A stretch of 64,000 bases of DNA, taken from Pseudomonas marvdashtae (GTDB lineage Bacteria; Pseudomonadota; Gammaproteobacteria; Pseudomonadales; Pseudomonadaceae). A program made the position numbers and the translations under genes. The stretch lies in assembly GCF_014268655.2 (NCBI RefSeq), contig NZ_JABWQX020000001.1, forward strand, positions 2,572,001 through 2,636,000. The letters are read 5' to 3'. The notes under the pieces are model-generated. The model was not told where the DNA came from and did no database searches. It worked only from the letters and a program-made list of their open reading frames with translations. Shown here in pieces: positions 2,050 through 8,708 of this stretch. Within the stretch, counting starts at the first letter, position 1. Each line of letters opens with the position of its first letter.

Positions 2050-3375
2050 ATGATCGAAGCCAGTACGTCACGTCGTCTGCTCGTGGTTGATCCCTGCGAT
2101 GATTGTCATCGCTTATTGCCCGGTCTGCGGACGGTGGGCTGGGACGTCGAGAGTTGCACCCTTGAGCATGCCGCGGACCGGACATGCGACGTCGGCCTGT
2201 TGCGCTTGCAACCGGCACATCTGGAGCGACCCGAAGCGGTCAAGGAACTGATCAGCCGCAGCGGCACCGAATGGATCGCCGTGCTCAACCAGGAAGTGCT
2301 GCGCCTGAAGAATGTCGGCGATTTTGTCTGCGAGTGGTTTTTCGATTTCCATACCTTGCCGTTCGACGTGTCTCGGGTCCAGGTGACGCTGGGCCGCGCA
2401 TTCGGCATGGCGCGCCTGCGGGGGCAGGGCTCGATTCACATTGATGAGCCTGAACACGAACTGCTGGGCGACAGCAAACCCATCCGCGAACTGCGAAAGT
2501 TATTGGCCAAGCTGGCGCCCGCCGAATCACCGGTATTGATTCGTGGTGAAAGCGGCACCGGCAAGGAACTGGTCGCCCACACGTTGCATCGCCAGTCCCA
2601 TCGGCGTAACAAGCCGTTCATTGCGATCAATTGCGGAGCGATCCCCGAGCACCTGATCCAGTCTGAATTGTTTGGCCACGAGAAGGGTGCTTTCACCGGC
2701 GCCCACCAGCGCAAGATCGGGCGAATCGAAGCAGCTCATGGCGGCACGCTGTTTCTCGACGAAGTCGGCGATCTGCCGCTGGAGCTGCAAGCCAATCTGC
2801 TGCGTTTCCTCCAGGAAAAACATATTGAGCGAGTCGGCGGCAGCCAGCCTATTCCGGTCGACGTGCGCATACTGGCCGCGACTCATGTGGATCTGGAAGC
2901 TGCGATCGAGCACAGGCGTTTTCGCGAGGATTTGTACTATCGCTTGAACGTCCTGCAAGTGGTCATGGCGCCATTGCGTGAACGCCATGGCGACCTGGCG
3001 ATGCTGGCCAGCCATTTTTCGCATTTCTACAGCCATGAAACCGGTCGCCGTTCTCGCAGCTTCAGCGAAGATGCGTTGGTGGCGATGGGCATGCACGACT
3101 GGCCCGGCAATGTGCGAGAGCTGGCCAACCGAGTTCGACGCGGCCTGGTGCTGGCGGAGGGGCGGCAGATCGAAGCCCGGGACCTGGGCCTGGCCAGCCG
3201 TCAAGGCGTGACGGCCCCGATGGGCACACTGGAAGACTACAAGACCCGCGCCGAGCGCCAGGCGCTGAGCGATGTGCTCAACCGCCACAGCGACAACTTG
3301 AGTGTGGCGGCCAAGGTGCTAGGCGTGTCACGACCGACTTTTTATCGGTTGTTGCACAAGCATCAGATCCGCTAG
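2050..3375 (+). CDS. Sigma-54-dependent enhancer-binding activator next to fap
   Basis: 441 residues from the ATG at 2050, which has AAGGAT eight bases upstream; an in-frame start at 1987 lacks this. Residues 1-125 form a degenerate receiver-like domain (LLVVDPCDDC start), which I think resembles the VpsR-type N-terminus. Then comes a full AAA+ core: Walker A GESGTGKE, the sigma-54 contact loop GAFTGA, Walker B GGTLFLDEVGDLP, and the arginine-finger region FREDLYYRLNVL. The C-terminus is a Fis-type helix-turn-helix (VAAKVLGVSRPTFYRLLHKH). The GAFTGA motif implies it opens RpoN promoters. The gene converges on fapF and shares a terminator with it. A sigma-54-type promoter with inverted repeats sits upstream of fapA, so fap is its most likely local target (inference). 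Confidence 0.9.
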   Translation: MIEASTSRRLLVVDPCDDCHRLLPGLRTVGWDVESCTLEHAADRTCDVGLLRLQPAHLERPEAVKELISRSGTEWIAVLNQEVLRLKNVGDFVCEWFFDFHTLPFDVSRVQVTLGRAFGMARLRGQGSIHIDEPEHELLGDSKPIRELRKLLAKLAPAESPVLIRGESGTGKELVAHTLHRQSHRRNKPFIAINCGAIPEHLIQSELFGHEKGAFTGAHQRKIGRIEAAHGGTLFLDEVGDLPLELQANLLRFLQEKHIERVGGSQPIPVDVRILAATHVDLEAAIEHRRFREDLYYRLNVLQVVMAPLRERHGDLAMLASHFSHFYSHETGRRSRSFSEDALVAMGMHDWPGNVRELANRVRRGLVLAEGRQIEARDLGLASRQGVTAPMGTLEDYKTRAERQALSDVLNRHSDNLSVAAKVLGVSRPTFYRLLHKHQIR

Positions 3376-3447: not shown

Positions 3448-4731
3448 TTAGAAGTAATACGGAAATTTCAGGCTGAAGGTGAAGTCCGGCGCATCGTCGG
3501 TCAGCCCGATGGACAGGTTGGGCACGATGGTCAGGTTGTCGCTGGCGGCCACGGTCATGCCGATGTTGAAGTAGCCGGCATTGGCGTCGCTGGACACCAC
3601 CGATTCCCAATCCCCACCGTCCTGCTTGAGCTTGCTTTTTTTCTGGATCAGGTCAGAGACCGAGAACGACATGCTCATCTTTTCGTTCAAGGCAAACGCA
3701 ATGCCCGCGCCGATCTGGAAGCTGTCGCCGATCCGCACCTTGCCCGGCACTTCCTGGTTGACCGTGGAGCTGATGTCGTCGAAGGATTCTTCCAGGTTAT
3801 GGGTGTAGGAAAGGCTGCCGAACAGCACCGCCGGATCAAAGGTCTTGACCAGGGAAATCCCGGGTGTGATCGACCAGACGCCGTTGCCGGTGGGCAGGTC
3901 TTCAGGCACGAACAGGTTGGTATTGACCTGGGACTGGCGCAGCTTGATGCCGAACGGGTCCTTGCCGGTGGGGGCCTTGACCCGCAGGGTCAACACCGCA
4001 TCGGGGGAGTTGATCGATTCATCCATGAACTTGTAGGCGATGCCGAAATTGACGTCGCCGATGGTGGGGTCGCGGGTCACGGTTTCTTCGCTGGTGACGC
4101 CGGCCGCGCCGTTGTTCGCGCCACCGGACTGGTACGTGGATTCGCGGTAGATCACCGGCACGTTGAGGTCGAACTGCCAGCGGTTGTCGAAGTTGTAGCG
4201 GCCGGTCAGGTCCAGCGTCCAGGTGTCGGCCTTGATCCGGTCGAGATTGATGTTGCCCAGGAAAATCGAATCCAGCGCCAGGAAGCCGTTGAGGATCAAC
4301 TGCCGGGTGTCATAGCGTGAGTAGGTCACGCCGGTTTCGAAGCTGAACTTGCCGCCGCCGAAAAAGCCGCTGGCCTCGTCGTAGAGGTTGGAGACGCTCT
4401 GCGCCGGTTGCGAGTCGTCGGCGAGCGATTGCCCGTAGCCGCTGCCGCCGGCCGTTGCGGTGCCGCTGCCGGCCACGCCCTGGTTGCCCTTCATGTCGGC
4501 CGGGGACTTGGCCAGGCGCTTGGGCGGCGGTGCGGCGGGTTGATCTTCTACCTGGCGGACCCGTTGTTCGAGTACCGCCAGGGCTTTTTGCTGGACCTCG
4601 TAGCGTTGCCTGAGCTCGAGAAGTTCTTGTTTCAAGGCTTCGATGTCCGCGTCCGGTGCCGCTTGCAACACGGTTGCCGGGAACATCGAGGTCAAACACA
4701 TCACAGCGCGCAACGATACGGATCGATACAT
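3448..4731 (-). CDS. fapF: FapF, outer-membrane pore for functional amyloid export
   Basis: 427 residues. A signal peptide ([24 protein letters not shown]) is followed by a short coiled coil ([22 protein letters not shown]), a proline-rich linker (about residues 65-75), and a long beta-rich domain ending in aromatic residues ([11 protein letters not shown]), as expected for an outer-membrane barrel. In the Fap family FapF is a trimeric barrel whose coiled coil gates export of FapA, FapB, FapC and FapE. It is the last gene of the minus-strand operon fapABCDEF, 46 bp after fapE. Length and layout match the family, and the neighbours make the call secure. Confidence 0.95.
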
Positions 4732-4777: not shown

Positions 4778-5524
4778 TCAATATCCGAGGTTGCGAAGCC
4801 CGCGCAGTTGCGTGAGGTTGCAGTCCAACGCTCCGGCGCTGGGGCCGTTGCTGTTCAGCACCACGTTGAGCTGGGTCATGTTGTTGACCAGGTTGCTGTT
4901 GCCCAGCAGGCGAGTGTTTTGCAGCAAGCCGCCTTGGGCCACCTGGTGCAGTGTGCCGCCCTGGTTGTGGCTGGCCTGGATCGCCATCTGCACGCCGCTG
5001 CCTGTGGCCGTGACCGCGACACTGCCGGCGGCGTTGCTGCCGCTGATGGTCTGGCCTTTGCCAAGCAGTTGGCCTTGGGAGGGCGCCAACGCAGGTGCCT
5101 GGCTGCTTTCCTTCACGTTGATGCTGACGTTGTTGTAAGCGGTATTACCGTCGCCCGCGGCGCGCACGCTCTGGGTCACACCCTGGCCTGAGCCAAGGCC
5201 GGCACCGCCGGTAATCGTGCCATTGCCCTGCTGCGGGGCGCTGCCGTTACCGGTCTGTTTGATGGTGGAGACATAGAACTCGGGTTTGACCGTGGAGGCC
5301 TGGATCTGCATGGCACTGGAGGCGCCGATCAAGTCGCCACTGGCGTTGCGCCAAGTGCTGGTCATGACGATGCCAAAGCTGATCACCCGTCCGGGCATGA
5401 CGTAACGACCGCGCAGCTCGGCGAGCTCCTGGTCCTTGACTTCGATGGGTTTGAAACCGGCGTGGGCAAGACCCGACGTCGTTGCGGCCAGGCAGGCCAG
5501 CGTGAGCCAGTATGAGCTTTTCAT
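4778..5524 (-). CDS. fapE: FapE, Fap amyloid system component
   Basis: 248 residues from the ATG at 5524, behind GGGAG; the signal peptide begins MKSSYWLTLACLAATTSGLAHA. The middle is rich in Gly, Asn, Gln and Ser, with amyloid-like stretches (DGNTAYNNVSINV, GNSNLVNNMTQLNV). The C-terminus is conserved-looking (LDCNLTQLRGLRNLGY). In characterised Fap systems FapE is secreted through FapF and found as a minor part of mature fibrils; its exact role is not settled. It sits between fapD and fapF on the minus strand. Confidence 0.93.
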   Translation of the reverse strand: MKSSYWLTLACLAATTSGLAHAGFKPIEVKDQELAELRGRYVMPGRVISFGIVMTSTWRNASGDLIGASSAMQIQASTVKPEFYVSTIKQTGNGSAPQQGNGTITGGAGLGSGQGVTQSVRAAGDGNTAYNNVSINVKESSQAPALAPSQGQLLGKGQTISGSNAAGSVAVTATGSGVQMAIQASHNQGGTLHQVAQGGLLQNTRLLGNSNLVNNMTQLNVVLNSNGPSAGALDCNLTQLRGLRNLGY

Positions 5525-5581
5525 GTGTTGCTCCCGGAGCATCCTGCTCCTTTTGTATTTTTATTGGCAGTTGTTCGGCGA

Positions 5582-6262
5582 TTAGAAAAAGTCGCTCTGG
5601 ATGAAGCCGAAATCCATCAGTTCCGCGTCCTTGACCGGGTTGAAACCGTCCAGCTTGTTACGCGCCGTCAGCGGTTGCGGTGGGCTGCGCAAGGCGTTGG
5701 TCTTGTCGTAACCGGGGCCGACGATGGCAAAGACGATGCCGTTCCAGCCCTTGATGAACTCATCATGGGCGTAGCGTTTGTGCCCCAGCACCGGGTCAGC
5801 GATGTAGACCCATTGCTTGTCGGCCCGCTGCAGCACCACGAAATGCTTGTAGCCGCGTATCTCCATCAGGACCACGACCGGGATCGTCACCGCGGCGAGT
5901 TTTTCCGGCGGTATCCGATAGCCTCGAGCGCGCATGCCGATGGTTTCCACGTAGCGCTTCATGTCCAGCATGGAAAAACCCTGGGTGCGGACCAGGTCTT
6001 GGTCGGCATTTACCAGCATGCCCTTGATGACGTGCTCTTCATCGACGTCAAGCCAGTAGGCCTGGCGCAATACGGTGGCCAGTGCGGCGGCACCGCAACT
6101 GAAATCGGTTTTCTGCTCGACGATGTCGCTGAACTTGCGTTCGCGCACGCTTTGCACCGGTTTGTAGACCAGCATGCCGCCAGGCAGGGCAGCGACAGGC
6201 ATCTGCGCGGCTTCGGTCGCGCAGGCAAAGCAAATGCACAGGCAAAGGGCTGTCGCACGCAT
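5582..6262 (-). CDS. fapD: FapD, C39-type cysteine protease of the Fap system
   Basis: 226 residues with a signal peptide (MRATALCLCICFACATEAA). The C39 peptidase core shows the catalytic cysteine in TDFSCGAAALATVL, the histidine in GYKHFVVLQ and the aspartate in YIADPVLGH. The family is thought to process or assist Fap subunits in the periplasm before export. The gene follows fapC, with a strong hairpin in the 66-bp gap between them that may lower transcription from fapD onward. Confidence 0.95.
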   Translation of the reverse strand: MRATALCLCICFACATEAAQMPVAALPGGMLVYKPVQSVRERKFSDIVEQKTDFSCGAAALATVLRQAYWLDVDEEHVIKGMLVNADQDLVRTQGFSMLDMKRYVETIGMRARGYRIPPEKLAAVTIPVVVLMEIRGYKHFVVLQRADKQWVYIADPVLGHKRYAHDEFIKGWNGIVFAIVGPGYDKTNALRSPPQPLTARNKLDGFNPVKDAELMDFGFIQSDFF

Positions 6263-6328: not shown

Positions 6329-7312
6329 TTACATGCAGGCCTTGCAGCCGGCCGCAATGGACAGCGAATTGCTCTGCTGGTTGCCCACGCCCGCCGACAC
6401 GTTGGCGCCGCCGTTACCGGAGAAGCCATTCATGGAGTTGGTCATGGTGGCGTTGTTATAGACAGGGTTTTTCCAGCCGTCGCGCGTCAGCACTTGCTGG
6501 GTGTTGCTGCCGGCCAGTTCGAAGGTCCCCACGGCGGAGAACTTGAACTTGTCGTCATCGTGACCACCACCGTAGCCGCCTTTGTTGCCCCAGCCACCGT
6601 CGTCTTCGACGGTACCGTTGCCTTTGGCCTTGAAAGTGCCGGAAGCCTCGTAGCTGTTGGTAAGCGTAACGACCTTATCGGTCTTCACGCCTTTGTTGTC
6701 GACAACCAGGCCGGTGGAGGACTGGTCAGCCGCGGCAGAAGCCTGGGCGACACGGCCGCCCGATACAGCGATGGCCAGGTTGTTTTTCTGCTGGTTGAAA
6801 TTGCCGGCGGTCACGTTGATGCCGATGTTGCCGGAGCCGTCGTTGCCTGCATTGGTGAGAGAAGCGTTGTTTTGCGTGGAGTTGTTCTTCACGTAGTTGT
6901 TGTTATTGACCTGCGTGGCGCTAGAAGCCGCGACTGCCGAGCCAAAGATGAAGCTTTCATCGGCGGTGGCCAATGCGGCGGCGTTGTCTTGCTGGTTGCC
7001 GTCACCGGCGGCGATGTTGGCGCCCATGTTGCCGTTGCTGCCATTGAGCGAGTCAGTGGCTTCGGCGGTGTTGCGGGTTGCCTGGTTGGTCACGACGTTG
7101 CCGTCGCTGTTTTGCTCATCCAGCACCGTAGCCCCAGCGCCGGCACTGATAGAGAGCAATTGTTCCAGCGTCGGCCCCTTGGGACCCTGGTTGCCATGGC
7201 CATGGCCATGGCCATTGCCATGACCGTTGCCGTTTCCTCCAGCCTGTGCAGCCATTGCCATGACAGCGGCGAGAGCGAAAACCAATGGTTTGAGCGCCAT
7301 TGTAGGTTTCAT
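6329..7312 (-). CDS. fapC: FapC, major amyloid fibril subunit
   Basis: 327 residues. Signal peptide, then a Gly/Asn/His-rich run (about residues 26-45). The three imperfect amyloid repeats carry MGANIAAGDGNQQDN, NIGINVTAGNFNQQKN and GGANVSAGVGNQQSN, separated by long linkers; the second linker holds a charged Gly-rich piece (DDGGWGNKGGYGGGHDDD). The chain ends in a CxxC motif (CKACM), as is usual for FapC. Start chosen at 7312 with AAGGAGA just upstream. FapC forms the body of extracellular Fap fibrils that strengthen biofilms. The gene follows fapB after 60 bp. Confidence 0.97.
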   Translation of the reverse strand: MKPTMALKPLVFALAAVMAMAAQAGGNGNGHGNGHGHGHGNQGPKGPTLEQLLSISAGAGATVLDEQNSDGNVVTNQATRNTAEATDSLNGSNGNMGANIAAGDGNQQDNAAALATADESFIFGSAVAASSATQVNNNNYVKNNSTQNNASLTNAGNDGSGNIGINVTAGNFNQQKNNLAIAVSGGRVAQASAAADQSSTGLVVDNKGVKTDKVVTLTNSYEASGTFKAKGNGTVEDDGGWGNKGGYGGGHDDDKFKFSAVGTFELAGSNTQQVLTRDGWKNPVYNNATMTNSMNGFSGNGGANVSAGVGNQQSNSLSIAAGCKACM

Positions 7313-7367: not shown

Positions 7368-7388
7368 CCGGGTCAGTCAGCGACCCGG
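7368..7388 (-). repeat. Hairpin across the fapB stop codon
   Basis: Perfect 7-bp arms CCGGGTC (7368-7374) and GACCCGG (7382-7388) with a 7-base loop. The hairpin includes the end of fapB. No U-run follows, so an effect on mRNA stability or on fapC translation is more likely than termination. Confidence 0.45.
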
Positions 7389-7951
7389 ATGCTCAGGGTG
7401 TTAGCCATGCGGTTGCCCACCCCGGCACTCTGGTTCACCTGGATCACCCCTCGGCTGCCGGTGAAGGCCTGGTCGCCGATGGCGACCTGGCGACTGCCGG
7501 TTGGGGTGTCAGTTGCTCCTGAGTTCGGTACCAGCGCCACGTTCTGTTGGGAAAGGGCGCTGTCGTCCATGCCTTGCGGACCGGCACTGATGCCTACCCG
7601 CATGACATTGGCCATCTGGTTGTTGGCCCCGGCGGACTGGTTGACACCCAGCACACCGTTACCGTTGCTGAAGGAGGTGCCGCCGATGCGCGCGCTTGCG
7701 TTCATCGACCGGCTGGCCGCCGTGTCGAGGCGTTGGCGCACGACAGTGGTGGCCTGGGCGCTGGTGCCGATGGCGATGGCGCGGGTATTGGTCTGCTGGA
7801 TCTGGTCACCAGCGGCCTGGTTGACGTTGAAATTGCCGGTATAGCGGCCACCGGAATTCTGCAGGTCGGCATGGCTGGTGACCGCCACGCCGGGATCGGC
7901 GAGCACGGTGGATGAGCCGAGCAGGGCGATCGCGAGCCAGGTCGGATTCAT
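7373..7951 (-). CDS. fapB: FapB, amyloid nucleator subunit
   Basis: 192 residues with a signal peptide (MNPTWLAIALLGSSTVLA). Three amyloid repeats are visible: GNFNVNQAAGDQIQQTN, GVLGVNQSAGANNQMAN and GVIQVNQSAGVGNRMAN. They match the FapC repeat pattern (V-N-x-x-A-G-x-x-N-Q/R-x-x-N). FapB is a minor fibril component believed to nucleate FapC. It lacks the C-terminal CxxC of FapC. The start lies one base after the fapA stop, so translation is probably coupled. Confidence 0.96.
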   Translation of the reverse strand: MNPTWLAIALLGSSTVLADPGVAVTSHADLQNSGGRYTGNFNVNQAAGDQIQQTNTRAIAIGTSAQATTVVRQRLDTAASRSMNASARIGGTSFSNGNGVLGVNQSAGANNQMANVMRVGISAGPQGMDDSALSQQNVALVPNSGATDTPTGSRQVAIGDQAFTGSRGVIQVNQSAGVGNRMANTLSIRVAD

Positions 7952-7952
7952 C

Positions 7953-8399
7953 TCACTGACCTCCCGCCAGCCGACCCAATGGGGCCAGGCCGGAACTCAG
8001 CGAGCGATTGATGGTGCCCGAGATCGCGCCGCCGCTTCCGCCACCATGACCGGCATTCATGCCGGGCATGCCGTTGGGGTTGGTCACGACATTGAGGCCT
8101 TGCACACCGGTATTCGGATTGACGGTGTTGCGGATCGTCGAACCGCTGGCGACCCCGGCGAAATCGCCATCGCTCAGCTCGGTGCTGGCAGTCGCCTGGT
8201 TGATTCGATCGGATGGATTGGCATTGACGGTGGTCGGGTAGGGGTCTTTACCGCCGTTACGCCCGATATGAACCGGTTGCACGTCGCGGTCGAGTACGAT
8301 GACGCCGTTGCCCTCGGCCTGCACCGGTAAGCTGAGCGTCGCACCGGCGGCGCAGCCAATCACTAACAGACAGGTCAAGCTTCTGTTGAAAGTCCCCAT
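7953..8399 (-). CDS. fapA: FapA, Fap amyloid system chaperone-like component
   Basis: 148 residues, first gene of the operon. Signal peptide MGTFNRSLTCLLVIGCAAGATLSLPVQA, then a Gly/Asn/Met-rich low-complexity tail (MPGMNAGHGGGSGG). AAGGAA lies about 9 bases before the ATG. In other Pseudomonas FapA is secreted and controls how much FapC versus FapB is found in fibrils; the mechanism is not fixed. A sigma-54-type promoter lies about 57 bp upstream. Confidence 0.93.
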   Translation of the reverse strand: MGTFNRSLTCLLVIGCAAGATLSLPVQAEGNGVIVLDRDVQPVHIGRNGGKDPYPTTVNANPSDRINQATASTELSDGDFAGVASGSTIRNTVNPNTGVQGLNVVTNPNGMPGMNAGHGGGSGGAISGTINRSLSSGLAPLGRLAGGQ

Positions 8400-8455: not shown

Positions 8456-8473
8456 AGCAGGTGTTGTGCCGGA
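8456..8473 (-). promoter_or_regulatory. Sigma-54 (-24/-12) promoter of the fap operon
   Basis: On the minus strand the sequence is TCCGGCACAACACCTGCT. GG and GC are separated by exactly 10 bases, as required for RpoN, and the element matches TGGCAC-N5-TTGC with one mismatch in each half (CGGCAC and CTGC). Transcription would start near 8446, giving a leader of about 47 bases before fapA. Confidence 0.75.
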
Positions 8474-8515
8474 TTCTGGAAAACCAATGGATTCAATGGC
8501 TTGGCTGATGGGTAA

Positions 8516-8533
8516 GGTTTCCATCGCGAAACC
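8516..8533. promoter_or_regulatory. Candidate activator site 1 upstream of fapA
   Basis: GGTTTC-N6-GAAACC, perfect 6-bp arms. It shares the TTTC-N6-GAAA core with the two sites further upstream and abuts site 2 (centres 18 bp apart). It sits about 80 bp upstream of the predicted transcription start, a normal place for a sigma-54 activator. Confidence 0.5.
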
Positions 8534-8553
8534 TGTTTCATCGTTGAGACAGG
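8532..8553. promoter_or_regulatory. Candidate activator site 2 upstream of fapA
   Basis: CCTGTTTCA-N4-TGAGACAGG, 9-bp arms with a single mismatch. Same TGTTTCA-N4-TGAAACA consensus as site 3. Confidence 0.55.
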
Positions 8554-8684
8554 CTCATGGGCTGCAAAGGGCCATCTGCTGTCGTTTGGCTATGATTTGA
8601 GCCCTGGGGCAGGGTGTTTCAGTGACTTGACAGTCAGGGCTGGAACGCCGCGAGGTGGCCCTGGATCCGGGTTTGAGGCAGTCG

Positions 8685-8708
8685 TGATGTTTCAGGGATG
8701 AAACATCA
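8685..8708. promoter_or_regulatory. Candidate activator site 3, perfect palindrome
   Basis: Arms TGATGTTTCA and TGAAACATCA, fully complementary over 10 bp around GGGA. It lies about 250 bp upstream of the predicted fap start and just overlaps the stop of the kinase gene. Confidence 0.6.

Follow-up and report, generated by a model that had tools for sequence, protein, structure and literature searches.

A probable sigma-54 promoter with an enhancer array for BrfA upstream of the fap amyloid operon in Pseudomonas marvdashtae

In Pseudomonas marvdashtae, the region in front of fapA very probably combines a sigma-54 promoter with an array of enhancer sites, lying further upstream, for the activator BrfA. 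It lies in a 64,000-nucleotide stretch of DNA that we analyzed (the window), in which a complete fapA-F operon, with all six genes scoring above the NCBIfam cut-offs, runs on the minus strand (Table 1). The GAFTGA-containing activator gene that an earlier note on this DNA had placed convergent with fapF is indeed there and is brfA, which gives the locus the arrangement of a BrfA-RpoN-fap module. Pfam and alignment show that BrfA consists of a VpsR-type N-terminal domain, an AAA+ domain with GAFTGA and a Fis-type helix-turn-helix (Sigma54_activat, 9e-73; VpsR, 4e-10; HTH_8, 2e-5). The query was the frame from 2047, one codon longer than the protein from its ATG. The VpsR N-terminal domain (PF20161) scored 39.9 bits with an E value of 3.9e-10, the gathering score being 23.7, and the protein carries GESGTGKE, GAFTGA, GGTLFLDE and HTH_8, as expected of a sigma-54 enhancer-binding protein.

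Table 1. Coordinates of the fap locus, counted from the first nucleotide of the window.
Feature	Position	Strand	Description
brfA	2050-3375	+	sigma-54 enhancer-binding protein, 441 aa, start at ATG 2050; 1326 bp including the stop
fapF	3448-4731	-	amyloid transporter; NCBIfam NF058560
fapE	4778-5542	-	NF058559
fapD	5582-6262	-	C39 peptidase family; NF058616
fapC	6329-7312	-	fibril subunit; NF058558
fapB	7373-7951	-	fibril subunit; NF058557
fapA	7953-8399	-	chaperone, first gene of the operon; NF058617
sigma-54-type -24/-12 promoter	8456-8471	-	CGGCACAACACCTGCT; GG-N10-GC; 72 nt before the fapA ATG
IHF-like element	8491-8503	-	CAAGCCATTGAAT; between site 1 and the promoter
putative BrfA site 1	8534-8551	-	TGTCTCAACGATGAAACA (TGTTTCATCGTTGAGACA as the repeat of the earlier note); 80 nt above the -24 box
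putative BrfA site 2	8615-8632	-	TGTCAAG-N4-TGAAACA; left arm degenerate; 81 nt above site 1
putative BrfA site 3	8685-8708 (core 8688-8705)		TGATGTTTCA-N4-TGAAACATCA; 154 nt above site 1

The RpoN-BrfA-fap module is already published for Pseudomonas fluorescens PF07. As excerpted here, PMC9207406 (2022) reports that the RpoN -24/-12 promoter of fapA was mapped by 5'-RACE, that the activator, encoded by an ORF of 1,326 bp, was named BrfA, and that both RpoN and BrfA are needed, fap expression being lost in a brfA mutant. The excerpted part of PMC13101488 (2026) places fapA under direct BrfA regulation and describes BrfA as sensing c-di-GMP, and that of PMC8202526 reports that fapABCDEF are down in a P. 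fluorescens rpoN mutant. The window has the same circuit as PF07 in its operon, in the RpoN promoter before fapA, in the convergence of brfA with fapF and in the length of brfA. The site array, its spacing and the IHF-like element do not appear in the excerpted parts of PMC9207406 and PMC13101488, on a literature basis that excludes Guo 2024 (Microbiol Res 287:127864).

An RpoN-type promoter with GG-N10-GC geometry had been proposed in front of fapA, and it is present there. FapA was found in 142 and FapB in 142 of the 199 Pseudomonas genomes of our genus sample, and fapA upstream regions were taken from 86 of the 142 fap-positive genomes (85 relatives and the window). The best-scoring promoter element in the last 140 nt was of the form GGCA[CT]...GC in all 86 regions, and the fap promoter scored 10.8 with an assumed sigma-54 matrix. 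The IHF consensus, taken to be YAANNNNTTGATW, is likewise an assumed one.

A palindromic site of the form TGTnTCA-N4-TGAnACA (site 1) stands at a fixed distance from this promoter. It precedes the -24 box by 80-82 nt in 84 of the 86 regions, starting at 81 nt in 65 of them, at 80 nt in 11 (the window included) and at 82 nt in 8. The best site 1 had three or fewer mismatches out of 14 in 72 regions, four in 10 and five in 4, and the 14 regions with four or five mismatches count against an enhancer array. Among the 67 distinct sequences of the 72 better regions, with the 14 poorer rows excluded, the information is 1.4-2 bits at 12 of the 14 positions of the arms, 0.6-0.7 bits at positions 4 and 15, and 0.1-0.4 bits in the spacer. 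GT-n-TC, and G..ACA of the other arm, are invariant in these sequences, and the N4 spacer is near random.

Further sites stand above site 1. Within 330 nt above it, we counted 43 distal sites with two or fewer mismatches, compared with 0.2 in shuffles. Their distances from site 1 are 47, 58-59, 69-70, 79-82 and 153-156 nt, apart from one site at 94 nt and one at 244 nt, and the steps of 11-12 nt, in kin genomes, would be near one turn of DNA. Site 3 of the window is among the 12 of 43 at 153-156 nt; its core reads TGTTTCA-N4-TGAAACA in either direction, and the extended site is the perfect palindrome with 10-bp arms that the earlier note had described. Site 2 has four mismatches and hence falls outside the 43, and relatives carry better versions at its place. 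The half site TGTTTCA that had been regarded as lone is present at 8615-8621, but it is the right arm of site 2. All sequences of the proposed three-repeat family are likewise present, but AGGTTTC-N6-GAAACCT (8515-8534) does not belong to the family and was rejected as a site, being found with three or fewer mismatches 60-200 nt before fapA in only 1 of 86 regions, that of the window. The 5.9-Mb genome has one exact TGTTTCA-N4-TGAAACA, the core of site 3. Allowing up to one mismatch gives four sites, of which two are in the fapA upstream region. That the sole exact palindrome of the genome sits here indicates that the repeats are beyond chance.

Between site 1 and the promoter there is an IHF-like element that had been overlooked. 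We assessed its conservation in 64 dereplicated sequences of the 66 with 81-nt spacing, the window excluded. The conserved element, cAAccc-tTGaat, has a mean of 0.78 bits compared with 0.17 bits in the gap before it; its two A are conserved at 97-98%, and its T and G at 100%. The A-rich stretch from the element to the -24 box is conserved too (0.70 bits). One mismatch or none to the presumed IHF consensus was found in 60 of 86 regions, where shuffled gaps expect 0.3 of 86.

The layout of these elements suggests how the operon may be switched on. At high c-di-GMP, BrfA would bind the TGTnTCA-N4-TGAnACA sites 1-3, of which it is the presumptive reader, and assemble an AAA+ ring. An IHF-type bend at 8491-8503, where IHF is the candidate protein, would then bring BrfA onto the RpoN-polymerase waiting at 8456-8471. 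The GAFTGA loop of BrfA would remodel sigma-54, and fapABCDE would be transcribed (fapF follows another pattern in PF07).

The palindrome tracks brfA across the genus. BrfA (E <=1e-120) was found in 164 of 199 genomes, and the exact palindrome was found in 60 of these 164 but in 0 of the 35 genomes without brfA (reversed control, 1 of 199). The association has a Fisher p of 1e-6 with related genomes counted as independent, and because the genomes are related the counts are not independent. The earlier note had suggested checking whether the repeat follows the activator gene, and it does; together with the orthologous circuit in PF07, this supports the self-contained module of RpoN and a local activator that the note had put forward. 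The composite of a site, 50-80 nt and GGCA-N8-GC was found in 97 of 199 genomes (reversed control, 0), by hand comparison at fapA in 94 of the 97 and solely elsewhere in G049, G087 and G149. Hand comparison also placed brfA in 141 of the 142 fap-positive genomes. In the one exception (G196, L179:2252-3598) fapA is present, the fapB match ends at residue 175 and the fap locus is adjoined by a brfA fragment of residues 1-129, which is probably the remains of a deletion. With fapB cut short and brfA reduced to a fragment, fap itself looks broken there.

Two genomes (G052 and G125; loci L170 and L171) have fapA and site 1, yet brfA has an in-frame stop in the former and a match that ends early, as with a frame shift, in the latter. 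No site with two or fewer mismatches was found in up to 400 nt before brfA at any of the loci examined for it. Autoregulation of brfA through the same palindrome was rejected, with matches of three mismatches in three loci only.

A protein other than BrfA might read the palindromes, either another enhancer-binding protein, for example the c-di-GMP-responsive FleQ, or an unrelated regulator, with BrfA acting elsewhere or indirectly. The genome of the window has 23 places with a BrfA-like AAA+ domain, brfA counted in. Of the 71 exact palindromes in the genus, 43 are found elsewhere than at fapA; they come from 38 genomes, and some are near type I secretion genes. At 36 of 40 off-fap loci (two one-mismatch sites of the own genome included), no sigma-54 element scoring >=9 was found within 260 nt. 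We rejected the off-fap palindromes as further sigma-54 targets on this count, and as most of them lack such an element, another protein may read the same motif. Against such a reader at fapA stands the absence of the exact palindrome from the 35 brfA-negative genomes, to which the off-fap sites conform (38 of 164 genomes with brfA vs 0 of 35 without). In addition, fap and the sigma-54 loop of BrfA go together, as described below, and in the excerpted reports on PF07 the brfA mutant loses fap expression (PMC9207406) and BrfA acts directly (PMC13101488). We therefore consider another binder unlikely.

Several off-fap palindromes precede chemoreceptor genes, two kinds of which were confirmed by Pfam. 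One group of exact palindromes in fap-positive genomes (L038, L039, L046, L047, L060-L062, L064, L065, L067 and L068) is flanked on one side by a glycerate-kinase-like gene, recognized by eye, and on the other by a chemoreceptor gene, identified by Pfam in the L046 copy; no sigma-54 element was found towards the chemoreceptor gene in this group. The few composite matches off fap sit near heterogeneous genes. TGTTTCATATATGAAACA and a -24/-12-like element precede an ABC transporter operon at L173:3050 and L174:3036 (G186, G087), and the operon at L173 encodes an NMT1-like binding protein. At L175 (~3000, G049), a site and a -24/-12-like element precede a beta-barrel porin 2 gene, a possible polysaccharide target, whose product has a weak likeness to PEP-CTERM/EpsL outer membrane proteins. 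For SfnR as a sharer of the palindrome motif, we found no usable literature support.

The palindrome at 8685-8708 could also be a terminator or RNA hairpin of the upstream kinase gene rather than an operator, as it overlaps the stop codon of this NadR-like kinase (8706-8708, minus strand) and its RNA would form a good hairpin (z -3.5, equalled by 0 of 200 shuffles). We rejected a terminator despite the hairpin because a simple scan showed no terminator-like site or T-run, and the similar sites at 153-156 nt above site 1 elsewhere (12 of 43) also speak for an operator, which leaves this explanation highly improbable. That the repeats are a chance similarity kept through shared ancestry is barely credible, even in one genus with some close kin, since the spacer (0.1-0.4 bits) and the neighboring DNA (0.15-0.17 bits) vary freely and the arms do not, the spacing is fixed, and the distal sites far outnumber those in shuffles (43 vs 0.2).

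Genomes that have brfA but lack fap bear on the sigma-54 function of BrfA. Profile searches revealed 23 genomes with brfA and without FapA or FapB. At 15 such loci, brfA is accompanied by the kinase gene and uppP in 15 and by pnuC in 12, as in the window, and no fap genes were found beside it. We compared the GAFTGA loop in BrfA from 79 of the 141 fap-positive genomes (the own genome excluded), from all 23 fap-less genomes and from G043, a more distant relative below the E 1e-120 cut-off. The loop G[AS]FTGA was present in 79 of 79 fap-positive BrfA (77 GAFTGA and 2 GSFTGA), whereas GAFTGA was kept in 1 of 24 fap-less BrfA and lost in 23, which have GAFNGA, GAFNGS, GAFEGA, GAFDGA or sequences less alike (Fisher 4e-22, related genomes counted as independent). 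In the exception, G137, a FapF tail (residues 385-427) is still found next to brfA, which points to a recent loss of fap. In Pseudomonas sp. CFII64, BrfA (77%) reads AFEGA, and fap matches are lacking within 7 kb. The loop goes with fap across genomes, an independent argument for fap being the main sigma-54 job of BrfA.

In a quick tree of 58 BrfA proteins, with the loop masked and the fap-positive proteins thinned, the fap state changes 6 times (5 of them forced by well-supported branches) and the loop state changes 5 times. One of the loop changes covers a group of 18 genomes, and G093, G116, G144 and G194 account for one each; these four have long branches whose placement is unsure, and support is weak at 22 of the 55 inner branches. 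Of the independent pairs drawn on supported branches, 4 agreed in direction, 0 opposed it and one showed no difference (p 0.125), so that the paired test of fap loss against loop loss is, taken alone, only suggestive.

At the DNA-reading end of BrfA, 72 of 79 fap-positive and 20 of 24 fap-less proteins share the same final 14 residues (RPTFYRLLHKHQIR). In the loop-less group dN/dS was 0.02-0.13 for the whole gene (eight pairs) and 0-0.03 for the C-terminal part (seven pairs), rough values with dS >1 in several pairs. The loop-less G116, G144 and G194 gave 0.10-0.23 against a fap-positive neighbor, and three fap-positive pairs gave 0.04-0.08. The loop was thus apparently lost several times among fap-less genomes and the DNA-reading helix mostly kept, suggesting that BrfA outlives its operon. 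The fap-less BrfA is thus maintained as a DNA-binding protein and has most likely given up sigma-54.

The palindrome persists in these genomes as well. With at most one mismatch, it was found in 18 of the 23 fap-less genomes with brfA (35 sites vs 2 in the reversed control). In seven fap-less genomes with loop-less BrfA, it stands 56-60 nt before the start of a protein of 382-390 aa (L034:3056, L069:3044, L049:3019, L244, L250, L252 and L254). It is exact in three of them and has one mismatch in four, in the form TGTTTCATTAT[TC]GAAACA and variants. The protein, of which one copy was examined, had no Pfam or NCBIfam match, and its N-terminus reads as that of a seemingly exported protein.

We lean towards the view that, after fap loss, BrfA often stays in the genome, sheds its sigma-54 contact loop (about 5 times on the tree), keeps its DNA-reading helix and the palindrome, and turns into a sigma-54-independent, VpsR-like regulator of other genes, for example that of the 382-390 aa protein. 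The off-fap sites, the BrfA-like protein of locus L234 outside the genus and the unsure long branches slightly temper our confidence in this view and in the sigma-54 module itself. VpsR of Vibrio cholerae shares the family of its N-terminal domain with BrfA (structure 7y19, E 0.001). The excerpts that we used describe VpsR as a bEBP without GAFTGA that regulates sigma-70 promoters (PMC10274813) and as RpoN-independent (PMC5552954). The loop-less BrfA resembles VpsR in the absence of GAFTGA; BrfA of the window differs from VpsR in that it retains GAFTGA and that the promoter of its target is of the sigma-54 type. A precedent for the loop-less BrfA is NtrC of Caulobacter and Rhodobacter, which has lost GAFTGA and works at sigma-70 promoters (PMC10274813, excerpt); the same excerpt draws no link to the loss of a target operon.

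Other c-di-GMP-responsive regulators of the biofilm matrix are comparable to BrfA. BerB of Burkholderia cenocepacia is, as excerpted from PMC5552954, also a c-di-GMP-binding enhancer-binding protein with GAFTGA that acts on matrix genes through RpoN, but its targets are exopolysaccharide genes, reached through berA, and not an amyloid; no BerB binding motif is given in that excerpt. FleQ, a c-di-GMP-responsive matrix regulator of Pseudomonas in the excerpted literature, is the best solved-structure match to BrfA, over the AAA+ domain. The N-terminal domain of FleQ had no Pfam match in BrfA at E 0.001, and the VpsR domain was found instead.

To look outside Pseudomonas, we searched 369 genomes of the class. 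FapF-like proteins (E <=1e-30) occur in 33 of them, counting the own genome, which alone among the 33 has a FapF above the curated cut-off. We followed the 16 other genomes with the strongest FapF-like matches and fetched 17 loci. In 16 of the 17 loci, one of them cut by a contig end, the fap-like genes have a BrfA-like neighbor; the remaining locus is an additional one from a genome already represented among the 16. GAFTGA or GSFTGA is seen in 14 of these 16 BrfA-like proteins, and one was not covered; that of L234 (38% identity) has no match to the G[AS]FTGA pattern, and its loop is unreadable in the alignment. Their helix-turn-helix ends differ from that of Pseudomonas BrfA. Of the 17 loci, 9 have a strong -24/-12 element, either in the interval separating brfA from fap or upstream of the leading fap gene, and the palindrome with two or fewer mismatches was found in 5 of 17 (a raw count), lying 83 nt above the -24 box in L222 and being exact in L237. 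A scan of genome contigs gave BrfA of >=77% identity in at least three named genomes; among the matches listed, BrfA-like matches occur together with weak Fap-like ones in Duganella qianjiadongensis and in a Thermodesulfobacteriaceae assembly. These results suggest that fap has long been accompanied by a BrfA-like activator outside the genus too.

Taken together, the sites, their spacing and the bend offer a concrete and testable DNA code by which c-di-GMP may turn on Fap amyloid production in Pseudomonas. The genomes without fap amount to a natural experiment, as a transcription factor that has lost its target operon there seems to have moved to another polymerase partner.
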